Below, in pieces: positions 34,774-38,129 of a DNA stretch of 64,000 nt. The stretch is from Salinigranum marinum. GTDB taxonomy: Archaea > Halobacteriota > Halobacteria > Halobacteriales > Haloferacaceae. The notes under the pieces were generated by a model. It was not told the DNA's origin, did not search any database, and was given only the letters and a program-made list of their open reading frames with translations. Each line of letters opens with the position of its first letter. The first letter of the stretch is position 1. Both the position numbers and the translations under genes were made by a program. Where the stretch lies: positions 1,364,001-1,428,000 of the forward strand of contig NZ_CP100461.1 in the NCBI RefSeq assembly GCF_024228675.1, in the 5' to 3' direction.

Positions 34774-37437
34774 TCACTCCCCCTCGGAGCCGTCGAAGCC
34801 GAAGCCGAAGCCGCCGGCGTCGTCGCCGTCGCCCTCGCGCCGCTGGTCGCCCTCGCGTTCCCCGCCGGAGCCGCCGAGCGCCTCCTCGAACGCGTCGGCC
34901 GCCCCCGCCTTCCCGGTCGTCTCGTCTGTCGGATCCGACGGGTCGGCGCTCACATCGGCGACGGGCTCCATGTCGGCGAGCGCGCTCGCGACGTCGGCGT
35001 CCTCGCTCCCGCGGAACTCGGGGAGCAACGACTCCTCGGCGCGTTCGAGGAGCCGCTCGGCCAGTGCGGCCGTCTCCCCGTCGGGGGAGGGACGCGGCAC
35101 CATCGCCTCCTTCTCGGGTTCGATGTTGATGTGAACCGACTCCATTTCCCGGAGGTCTTCGAGCGACTGCCTGAGCCGGTCGTCGGCGATGAGCGCGAGG
35201 ATGGTCTCTTGATCGTTGATAAAGGCCTGGAACGTCGCCGCGACCTCGGCGTAGGTGTTGAGGCCACGGTCGATGAGGTACGCGAGGACGACCTGTCGCT
35301 TGAACAGCTCCCGGTCGAGTTTGTCCGCGGTCCACCCGCGGTCGAACATGATCTCCTCGAGCGTGTTCGAGTTCCCCATCTTGAGGAACTCGTCCGTCTC
35401 CGCCTGCCACTGGTAGACGTCCTGGACGTTGATCTCGTCGTTCTCGGCGTCGTAGTGGTTGATCTCGGTCAGCGACTTGTTCCGGCGGACCTTGTTGCCA
35501 CCCACGCGGGTGGAGGTCTGGATCGACACCAGATCCAGCGCCGTGAACATCGTCTTCGAGACGTTGATCGGCTCGGTCGTAAAGCGCTTGAGCACCTCGC
35601 CCACGGAGTCGGCGTGGAACGTGGTGTAGGTGGTGTGCCCCGTCGACATGACCTGGAAGAGCGTCCGGCCCTCTTCACCACGGATCTCGCCCATCACGAT
35701 GTAGTCGGGTCGCTGGCGGAGCGCGGCTTCCAGCAGGGCGAACTCGTCGACGTCGCCGCCGTCGTCCTCGGCGAACGACGGTCTCGTAACGGAGGCGATC
35801 CAGTTGCGCTGGGGGAGTTCGACCTCGCGGGTGTCCTCGATCGAGACGATCTTCGAGTTCGAGGGGATGAAAAGCGACACCGCGTTCAGCGAGGTGGTCT
35901 TTCCCGACGCCGTACCGCCGGCGAAGATGAGCGACTTGTGGTTCTCGATGCAGAGCCAGAGGAAGGCCATCTCGTCGAGCGAGAACGTGTTCCAGTTGAT
36001 CAGGTCGATGGGCGTGAAGGGAACGTCCTTGAACTGCCGGATCGTGTAGTTCGTCCCGTGGTCCGAGACCTCCCGGCCGAGGGTGAGCTGGGCCCGAGAG
36101 CCGTCGGGCAGGGTGGCGTCGACCTGCGGCCGCCGTTTGGAGATGCCCTTGCCCGAGCGCTGGGCGAGTTTCACCACGAAGTCGTCCAGCTCCTCACGGC
36201 CGTGGTAGACGTTGGAGATGATCTGCTCGTAGTCGGAGTGGTAGACGAAGACGGGCGAGTGGTAGCCGTCGCAGGAGATGTCCTCCACGTTGATGTCGTG
36301 TTTGATCCCGTCGATGCGCTCGTATCCCGTGAAATCCCGGCGGAGGTAGTACAGCAGTTTCTCCACCTGGTACTCGTTGAGCGTCTTCGCGTCCTCGGCG
36401 AGCACGGCGGGTTCGGGCCGCGCCTCGATGCCGTCGAGGCTGCCGACCCCGAGCGCGGTCGACGTCGAGGCGGGTTCGGGATCGTCACCGAGTCCGAGCA
36501 GGTTCGCGAGCGGGGCCAGCGGGCCGCGCTGGATGAAGCCACCGTCCTTGCCGGCACTGGCCGCGGTCGGCGCGGTGAACAGGTCGTACCGTTCGAGGAG
36601 GTTCAAGGTCTCCGCCTCGATGACCTGTCGTCGTTCCTCGAGATCGGCGGCGATGACGTCGTCGTCGGAGTACTTGATCGCGGTTCGGAGCTTCCCGGTG
36701 AGGAAGTCGACGAGGTCGTCCTCGATCCGGTTTCTGTGCGGCTGGACCACGTAGTACTTCTTCTCGTTCTCCTTGGTCGAGTGGAAGATGACGACGAACG
36801 AGTAGGGCTTGTTGACCCAGTAGCGTTCGACCTCCCGGAAGTGCGTCTTCTTCGCGAGCGGGACGGACTTCTCCAGGTCGTACCGTGTCACGATCGTCGA
36901 GTGACCCTCGTCGGTCCGGAAGAAGGCGTCCTCGTCGAAGTCGTCCTGCACGCTCACGGTCCGCTGGTCGACCACCTCCGCGAGTTCGGCACCGCGGTCC
37001 CCCGCGTGGCCGATCACGGACTCGATCTCGGCGGGATCGAAGCCCAAGGCGTCGTCGAGGCGCTCTCTCGGGTGGTCGGCGGCGAACTCCTCCTCGCCGT
37101 ACCAGTCCTTGGCGACGGGTGGGTTCTCGGGATCCAGATACGCGCCGATCCGGTCGTTCAGCCGCTCTGCGTCGGCCGCGGCGCCTGCCACCCGGTCGGC
37201 CGTCTCGGTCGGGTGAAAGCCGAGGTCGGCAACTGCGGCGTCCTCACCCTCGATCGAGTCCCAGTCGATACCCCCGTCGTCGTGTCGCGTCTCGGCGGCG
37301 GCGTCGGCGTCGTCCGCTCCACCGTAGTCGGCGAGGTACTGCTCCCACGTGTACTCGCCGACGGTCGCCCCCACCGACCGCGACGGCGCTGACTCGGACC
37401 GCGTCTCGCCGGTCGGATCAGCGTCGTCGATAGCCAT
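34774..37437 (-). CDS. PilB/TadA-like type II/IV secretion ATPase
   Basis: The 887-residue protein has an acidic N-terminus, a long N1-type region (about 90-480, including KKYYVVQPHRNRIEDDL and DGYHSPVFVYHSDYEQI) and a RecA-like ATPase core. The core shows Walker A GGTASGKTTS (near residue 512), the Asp box SIEDTREVELPQ, Walker B DYIVMGEIRGEEG and the His box MSTGHTTYTTFHADS. A Gly/Asp-rich tail of about 70 residues ends the protein. It powers assembly of the pilus-like structure. First gene of the eight-gene operon. Confidence 0.94.
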   Translation of the reverse strand: MAIDDADPTGETRSESAPSRSVGATVGEYTWEQYLADYGGADDADAAAETRHDDGGIDWDSIEGEDAAVADLGFHPTETADRVAGAAADAERLNDRIGAYLDPENPPVAKDWYGEEEFAADHPRERLDDALGFDPAEIESVIGHAGDRGAELAEVVDQRTVSVQDDFDEDAFFRTDEGHSTIVTRYDLEKSVPLAKKTHFREVERYWVNKPYSFVVIFHSTKENEKKYYVVQPHRNRIEDDLVDFLTGKLRTAIKYSDDDVIAADLEERRQVIEAETLNLLERYDLFTAPTAASAGKDGGFIQRGPLAPLANLLGLGDDPEPASTSTALGVGSLDGIEARPEPAVLAEDAKTLNEYQVEKLLYYLRRDFTGYERIDGIKHDINVEDISCDGYHSPVFVYHSDYEQIISNVYHGREELDDFVVKLAQRSGKGISKRRPQVDATLPDGSRAQLTLGREVSDHGTNYTIRQFKDVPFTPIDLINWNTFSLDEMAFLWLCIENHKSLIFAGGTASGKTTSLNAVSLFIPSNSKIVSIEDTREVELPQRNWIASVTRPSFAEDDGGDVDEFALLEAALRQRPDYIVMGEIRGEEGRTLFQVMSTGHTTYTTFHADSVGEVLKRFTTEPINVSKTMFTALDLVSIQTSTRVGGNKVRRNKSLTEINHYDAENDEINVQDVYQWQAETDEFLKMGNSNTLEEIMFDRGWTADKLDRELFKRQVVLAYLIDRGLNTYAEVAATFQAFINDQETILALIADDRLRQSLEDLREMESVHINIEPEKEAMVPRPSPDGETAALAERLLERAEESLLPEFRGSEDADVASALADMEPVADVSADPSDPTDETTGKAGAADAFEEALGGSGGEREGDQRREGDGDDAGGFGFGFDGSEGE

Positions 37438-37832
37438 TGTAGTCGCTCACGATTCTCTCCATCAAAAAGTCTTCTCCGACTGGTATCGTCGATCTACTAG
37501 AAAACATGTCGTACAAAATCGGTATACTGCACCTACTTTTCCTCTTTAACATACGAAATTTTATAGTAAACTCGATCTGACTCGCCGGTTTAGATTATTG
37601 ATTCTGATATCTTCGATGAGGGGCACGAGGTATATGTGCCGTTCAAATACTCCTTATCAGGGGGCGGATCTGCGAGCCGACCACGTCGAGGTTCAGTGAG
37701 TCGACCGTGACAGCGATCCGATCGCACGGGACAACGTCATCTAGGGGAGGTGGGGGTCGGAGAACGACGTTGATCGCGTGACAGCTCGAGCCACGCCGGT
37801 ACTCGCCTGACTCGAGGCGGAAAGAGGGTGGC
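37438..37832. other. AT-rich leader region upstream of the pilus-like operon
   Basis: No gene is seen. Bases about 37450-37660 are markedly AT-rich compared with the rest of the window (for example tttcctctttaacatacg, aaattttatagtaaactc, tagattattgattctgat). This must hold the promoter of the pilB-like gene on the minus strand and may bind regulators. The base composition also fits foreign or decayed DNA next to a tRNA gene. Confidence 0.6.
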
Positions 37833-37853
37833 GGGCGTGGCGGGACTCGAACC
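37833..37853 (-). repeat. Copy of the 3' end of tRNA-Arg(CCT), possible att remnant
   Basis: The 21 bases gggcgtggcgggactcgaac plus c match the 3' end of the tRNA-Arg gene at 38058-38078 with one difference (actcgaacc for attcgaacc). The other tRNA arms are missing. Such 3'-end copies usually mark one border of an element that integrated into the tRNA gene. The enclosed interval is only about 200 bp, so any element has been lost or reduced. Confidence 0.6.
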
Positions 37854-37963
37854 ACGGTCGGACGTGCTCACTCCGCTGCGCGCCACCTCCTGATTGGACT
37901 CCCGTGCCCCGTGCCGGCGGCTCACTGACGTTCGCTCCTCGTATTCGTCGCAGAACGGGTGTG

Positions 37964-37998
37964 ACGGGACTCCCGCAAGCGGCGGGACTCCCGCAAGC
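37964..37998. repeat. Two tandem copies of a self-complementary 17-mer
   Basis: The unit cgggactcccgcaagc occurs twice at an 18-base period between the tRNA gene and its 3'-end copy. Each unit holds a tight inverted repeat (gcggga/ctcccgc). It could be a residue of the lost element. Confidence 0.75.
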
Positions 37999-38056
37999 GA
38001 AGCGAGTGGGCGTACGCCACGGCCGTTTTCCTGCGAGCGACAGCGAGCGGTGAAAA

Positions 38057-38129
38057 CGGGCGTGGCGGGATTCGAACCCGCGATCGAGAGGTTAGGAACC
38101 TCTCGCCCTGTCCACTAGGCCACACGCCC
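38057..38129 (-). tRNA. tRNA-Arg (anticodon CCT)
   Basis: The minus strand folds as a full cloverleaf: acceptor stem GGGCGTG with CACGCCC and a G discriminator, D-arm GCC..GGC, anticodon stem AGAGG/CCTCT around the loop TTCCTAA (anticodon CCT), and T-arm GCGGG-TTCGAAT-CCCGC. No intron and no encoded CCA. It decodes AGG arginine codons, rare in this GC-rich genome. A partial copy of its 3' end lies about 220 bp away. Confidence 0.96.

Follow-up and report, generated by a model that had tools for sequence, protein, structure and literature searches.

The tRNA-Arg(CCT) locus of Salinigranum marinum

The window analysed here is the whole 64,000 nt stretch of Salinigranum marinum DNA (GCF_024228675.1, contig NZ_CP100461.1, positions 1,364,001-1,428,000 of the forward strand), and all window coordinates below are counted from its first letter. 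The only tRNA gene that ARAGORN finds in it is tRNA-Arg(CCT), on the minus strand at 38057-38129 (Rfam tRNA, 68.5 bits). As a sequence-only reading of this DNA had reported, the 3' end of the gene is copied nearby in direct orientation. The last 22 nt of the tRNA align with an echo at 37832-37853 (minus strand) with 21 of 22 positions identical and a start-to-start spacing of 225 nt. A search of the 4.9 Mb genome with the 22-nt tail pattern (up to 3 mismatches) returned four sites, namely the tRNA, the echo and two unrelated sites with 3 mismatches each, and the reversed control pattern returned none. A chance origin of the copy is ruled out by the 21/22 identity together with its being the only near-copy in the genome. 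A tRNA pseudogene was also rejected as the main reading, since only the tail and T-arm are held in common and Rfam finds one tRNA.

The DNA from the tRNA to the far end of the echo is organized as a series of hairpins, all on the minus strand. Immediately 3' of the tRNA the predicted fold gives a first spacer hairpin (X, 38023-38056), which recurs at the equal position and with similar letters 3' of the att copy of an integrated element in a congener (see below). It is followed by a type-B unit (37956-38022; fold z of -2.0 against shuffled sequences), a hairpin whose final 13 nt (37956-37968) repeat the tRNA tail. The repeat that the sequence-only reading had placed between tRNA and copy is present as an exact 17-18 nt tandem duplication at 37965-37999, and is read here as a slip duplication of 18 nt inside this second hairpin unit. 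Type-B units with species-specific tails are also found in relatives; they fall outside the covariance model described below and were judged by eye. A second, degenerate spacer region (X, 37929-37955) leads to a type-A unit (37832-37906), composed of an inverted T-arm, a hairpin interior and the direct tail echo. The type-A unit is matched by the covariance model at 37840-37907 (49.2 bits, 150 nt behind the tRNA, same strand). It is called decayed because its fold is no better than that of shuffled sequences (z of -0.06, compared with a mean of -1.94 for the set). No ORF of 80 or more amino acids lies between the echo and the tRNA (37854-38056).

Beyond the echo, and outside the unit, an AT-rich region (37438-37640) lies directly upstream of pilB, which starts at 37437. 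The low GC content is real (0.47 over the 300 bp from 37450 to 37750), but its interpretation as an island is rejected: it is the region upstream of pilB, and the equivalent place is AT-rich by eye in the other three congeners as well. The genus was sampled by four genomes, the window's own included (G000-G003), and in all four pilB-pilC occupies the same place, as does the tatA/peroxiredoxin side of the tRNA. The start of pilB is also visible behind tRNA-Arg(CCT) in three genomes of other genera (G112, G067, G019). The pilus operon, which had been suspected of being brought in or rearranged by an element, thus did not arrive with one and was rejected as its cargo. The AT-rich stretch and the operon are old neighbours of this tRNA.

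Tail-echo units behind tRNA genes

Units of the same anatomy are found behind many tRNA genes. A tail-echo unit spans ~70-130 bp. It opens with a spacer hairpin and an inverted copy of the T-arm of the tRNA in front of it, continues with a hairpin interior that varies between units, and closes with the tail of that tRNA repeated in direct orientation from GGTTC to the last base; such units may stand in tandem. The window's genome carries them also behind Gly, Met, Lys, Val, Ser and Asp tRNAs, each with the tail of that tRNA. Type-A hairpins were searched for with a covariance model (R1) for which 26 units were aligned and 24 sequences used, the window unit not being among them; the model is built on the T-arm and includes at most a few bases of the 14-nt tail that is compared with the tRNAs below.

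Within the four congeners R1 gives 99 hits, 80 of which follow a tRNA on its own strand at a distance of 29-260 nt, and a unit is present at 63 of the 185 tRNAs listed. The remaining 19 hits consist of six antisense twins of palindromes, two that overlap a tRNA and 11 far from any listed tRNA. All four opposite-strand hits near tRNAs are antisense twins, and no adjacent unit lies on the opposite strand. Among the far hits, four adjoin tRNA-Pro(CGG) or an intron-bearing tRNA-Trp that are missing from the tRNA list and six lie behind a detached tRNA 3' end, so that the idea of genuinely dispersed units was dropped. The one unexplained hit (G003:C1:1081905-1081960, L230) has neither a tRNA nor a detached tRNA end.

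The linkage to tRNAs extends to four genomes from four other families, in which at least 110 of 135 R1 hits (seven antisense twins left out) follow a tRNA of their own strand at no more than 700 nt, judged against 150 of their 197 tRNAs. Against the same 150 tRNAs no hit lies on the opposite strand, and 25 of the 135 are without a listed tRNA.

We are highly confident that the window copy is one of these units, with an R1 match inside the 29-260 nt range and a tail that is that of the local tRNA at 21 of 22 positions.

Distribution and turnover

At an E-value of 1e-4, R1 gives hits in 115 of 116 genomes of the haloarchaeal class, covering all 46 genera and nine families. Across the phylum 25 of 157 genomes have hits, all of them from the window's order; among 20 listed of the 132 genomes without hits, one belongs to the window's family and 19 to other parts of the phylum. 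The longest tandem array among the matches listed is a row of five hits spaced ~110 bp apart (G099:C1:2656893-2657411). Presence at individual tRNAs is patchy even within the genus: counted by isoacceptor, units occur in all four congeners for eight and in one to three of them for 21.

The surroundings of tRNA-Arg(CCT) itself were compared in 44 genomes, comprising 40 of 148 family genomes searched in which the match spanned the tRNA and tatA, the three further congeners and the window. Copies of the tail with up to 4 mismatches occur in 22 of the 44 (25 copies, mostly within 204 nt behind the tRNA, including the att copy in G003, with two of the stretches ending at contig ends), and reverse-complement and reversed control patterns gave no copy in the same stretches. 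These copies mostly carry the species' own variant of the tail and sit in tandem units with hairpins. Degenerate tail copies are present behind this tRNA in all four congeners, several of them in G001 and G002, which carry no element there. To a large extent this is the conservation among relatives that the sequence-only reading had said would mark the copy as an old feature.

Local tails and shared interiors

The two parts of a unit have different affinities. When the tails of the 80 adjacent units are compared with the last 14 nt of tRNAs (35 isoacceptor labels), the unit's own tRNA is strictly the best match in 69, tied in 6 and worse in 5. Mismatches average 1.25 with the own tRNA and 5.34 after shuffling, the lowest of 1000 shuffles being 4.59. 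The inverted T-arm likewise follows the local tRNA (mean of 1.99 mismatches versus 2.72; lowest of 500 shuffles 2.51), whereas the acceptor part of the inverted arm is hardly local (4.15 versus 4.37, a value as low being reached in 7 of 1000 shuffles). A single extra base, mostly C (TTCA-C-AATCC), is present in the T-loop copy of 18 of the 80 units, at different tRNAs, and by eye is absent from the inverted arm in the cases compared.

The interiors, in contrast to the tails, are shared across tRNA genes. The nearest relative of an interior belongs to another tRNA in 61 of 80 units and to the same tRNA in 19, the latter above the 4 % expected; interiors differ at orthologous tRNAs and are common to non-orthologous ones. 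One interior pattern of ~35 nt was found in 11 stretches of named genomes, from Halobellus, Halonotius, Haloferax, Halomarina, Halogeometricum, Halegenticoccus and Halalkalirubrum. In 10 of the 11 the unit lies 48-123 nt behind a tRNA and ends, by eye, in the local tail or a close variant; these tRNAs are of eight kinds (Val, Gly, Asp, Met, Arg(CCT), Ser, Arg(TCG) and Leu). The remaining locus, in Haloferax marinum, has its nearest tRNA at 2,124 nt and a poorly fitting tail. The sole stretch common to nearly all tRNA tails seen is GGTTCRA.

Integrated elements at the same tRNA genes

The idea that tRNA-Arg(CCT) serves as an integration site, put forward in the sequence-only reading, holds for one congener. 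In G003 a 42 bp exact copy of the 3' part of the tRNA lies 6.2 kb downstream of it, and the element in between (L021:9958-16130) encodes an intact integrase (Phage_integrase, PF00589) and a large NosD/CBM6 protein. It also contains a second, broken integrase frame, which over half its length shares 54 % identity with the first. The intact and broken frames lie at the two ends of the element, suggesting two successive integrations. Only two relatives of the G003 integrase, at 34-35 % identity, were found among the viral contigs. No element is present at this tRNA in G001, G002 or the window, so that the site is occupied in one of four congeners; absence of occupied sites anywhere, which had been named as grounds for giving up the integration account, was not what we found. 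The comparison of occupied and unoccupied states nonetheless speaks against the window copy as a scar: an older, equivalent copy of the tail persists in G003 beyond the element's own att repeat, alongside the degenerate copies in the unoccupied genomes.

Detached tRNA 3' ends with units were found for Arg-CCT (G003), Thr-CGT (G002), Ala-CGC (G002 and G003; 13-15 nt, read by eye), His-GTG (the window's own genome) and a Trp tail (G002), and upstream tRNA genes were confirmed for His, Thr and both Ala cases. The detached ends indicate that incoming elements insert themselves between a tRNA and its unit, which is thereby moved off. At tRNA-Ala(CGC) islands of 17 and 26 kb (L237 and L238, in G002 and G003) are present at the same gene with a short att of 13-15 nt. 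A related integrase gene lies near the distal end of both, scoring below the curated Pfam cut-off and matching the G003 integrase strongly by tblastn. Outside the window, 37 kb of the S. marinum genome (C1:2763040-2800393; L235, L236) separate tRNA-His(GTG) from a detached His tail with a displaced unit. This stretch is likely an integrated island, and Pfam gave no integrase in the four end ORFs tried. Several islands thus show that the tRNA itself is where integrases act, and that the units can be displaced from it as a result.

Origin of the tail-echo units

An explanation has to account for the position of the units behind tRNAs, their local tails, their shared interiors, their patchy presence and their displacement by islands, all of which are observed. 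Our preferred explanation is that the window echo probably forms the 3' end of a hairpin unit that is linked to its tRNA and has decayed, one member of a class-wide repeat set, together with a way of joining new tRNAs. Under this proposal hairpin cassettes would move or be copied between tRNA loci and join at the T-loop motif GGTTCRA, after which the new unit would be completed with the tail of the local tRNA. Both arms might be completed or corrected from that tRNA, and recombination between tail echoes could expand, delete and homogenise units. Taken by itself, the mechanism, in which interiors spread via GGTTCRA and both arms are made to fit the local tRNA, is something we infer and hold tentatively, as plausible and still short of probable. 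Mobility rests on the shared interiors and the patchiness, because no insertion with an otherwise identical empty site was caught. Presence varies among the four congeners, which yielded no clean pair of a filled site and an empty site with a single tail. No protein able to move the units was identified, and gene conversion with correction of the palindrome could account for both arms without any movement. The barely local acceptor part of the inverted arm and the decay of the window's own unit count against the preferred explanation as well.

Alternatively, the units might function as RNA, the hairpins lying in a putative pre-tRNA trailer and being selected, for instance, for protecting the transcript, ending it or processing it, or for pairing with the T-arm as an alternative partner, with selection keeping the tail echo complementary to the local tRNA. 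Several features are consistent with this. Every adjacent unit is on the tRNA strand, and the 80 units fold better than shuffled sequences (mean z of -1.94, compared with -0.06 for control stretches from the same regions). The sense hairpin is more stable than the antisense in 67 of 80, and G-U pairs outnumber A-C pairs by 60 to 28. The fold and the G-U asymmetry are hints in the sequences that point to RNA; however, 20 of the 60 G-U pairs are at one position, where shared ancestry may account for them, and purine richness of the sense strand by itself favours G-U, so that strand composition and common descent could be the source of RNA-like signals. Nor is such a function easily squared with a unit at only 63 of 185 tRNAs, with presence that varies between congeners for 21 of 29 isoacceptors or with interiors that differ at orthologous tRNAs and are common to non-orthologous ones; we regard it as a rather doubtful, though serious, alternative. 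A purely local origin, in which slippage or template switching at the T-arm creates the units, gene conversion keeps the copies alike and nothing moves between loci, would draw on the palindromic nature of the T-arm itself, on tandem arrays such as that in G099 and on the 18 nt slip duplication within the window's type-B unit. It is unlikely given that the ~35 nt interior stands at full length behind eight kinds of tRNA in different genera and that 61 of 80 interiors are closest to one at another tRNA.

Two further readings assign the tail copy to an insertion event. Target-site duplication by a transposon or MITE inserting at tRNA tails has the merit that a duplicated target follows the local tRNA automatically, as the tail does. 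It leaves the match of the inverted T-arm to the local tRNA and the spacer hairpin at the start of each unit unexplained, no transposase was linked to the units (with no systematic search), and we give it very little credence. Hardly any is left for the account of the sequence-only reading, a decayed integration site with the window copy as distal att of a small or lost element, which as applied to this copy is largely refuted. The orientation and position of the copy do fit, the occupied tRNA of G003 with its 42 bp att is a real precedent, and the passages of PMC3119063 considered here describe haloarchaeal prophages in which part of a tRNA (22 and 43 bp) is duplicated. The equivalent copy outside the G003 att and the several copies in the unoccupied G001 and G002, however, speak against it. 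A like arrangement follows the tRNAs of 29 isoacceptors, what repeats between tRNA and copy is itself a hairpin unit, the 22-mer core has no match in the viral contigs scanned, and neither an integrase nor an ORF of 80 or more amino acids lies between the window copies.

Relation to known repeats and fragments

The closest parallel in anatomy is found in Escherichia coli K-12, where the 178 bp repeats of the tyrT/tyrV locus correspond to the Rfam family RF00391 (RtT; rttR, tpr), a unit that to our knowledge is confined to that tRNA locus. Copies of the tail lie at +157, +335 and +513 behind tyrV, with 3 of 22 positions mismatched and the last 19 nt exact (extent by eye). Within each unit the tail echo ATCCTTCCCC stands, by eye, opposite an inverted arm GGGGAAGGAT, and Rfam gives four RtT matches at the locus. 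The haloarchaeal units are similarly placed in tandem behind a tRNA, each ending in the tRNA tail and with an inverted arm facing the echo. They differ from the 178 bp RtT unit in size, and their set spans many tRNAs in nearly every genome of the class searched. In the window region Rfam does not find RtT even with the E-value relaxed to 5, and the units of six haloarchaeal loci match neither RtT nor any other non-tRNA family; besides tRNAs, the only Rfam match in these six loci is a ribosomal protein leader away from the unit (L217, 778-880). Judged from sequence, the haloarchaeal units share the anatomy of E. coli tyrT/RtT, show no kinship to it in sequence and are not placed in that family.

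With elements that integrate at tRNA 3' ends by tyrosine recombinases the units have in common that the 3' end of the tRNA recurs downstream in the same direction. In the real or likely integration cases of these genomes (Arg-CCT, Ala-CGC, Thr-CGT and His-GTG) the copies bound kilobases, and an integrase is present in three of five cases (Thr-CGT standing outside that check). The copies of tail-echo units, in contrast, bound a hairpin of ~70-130 bp, repeat in tandem and enclose interiors common to different tRNAs. The units also resemble the tRNA gene fragments of PMC9897764 in being partial tRNA sequences in prokaryotic genomes. In the passages considered, that study traces the fragments in its 20 Thermococcaceae genomes to elements that have integrated and, in one case, to CRISPR, and describes no arrays of hairpin units behind tRNAs. 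Nor are tail-echo units described in the corresponding passages of PMC8371274, PMC3119063 and PMC7714728. No description was found in the literature searched, which is weak evidence with subscription journals mostly outside the search.

Implications

Copies of tRNA 3' ends are routinely read as att scars that vanished elements have left. Many of the short ones in haloarchaea may instead be tail-echo units, so that caution is due when islands or prophages are called from them. In the other direction, several units without a tRNA nearby served here as markers for where an integrated island ends on its distal side.

It is also conceivable, though we would not expect it, that the class carries a minimal, gene-less mobile repeat, a hairpin cassette of ~35 nt that joins any tRNA at the universal T-loop motif, has both its sides completed from the local tRNA and so bears the tail of its host tRNA in every copy; if this is true, E. 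coli would have come by the same device at tyrT either independently or from a very ancient source. The set of units opens the long-known tyrT oddity to comparison, since nearly all genomes of one class offer many units, and it raises the testable question of how a repeat spreads between tRNA genes and yet bears the local tail.
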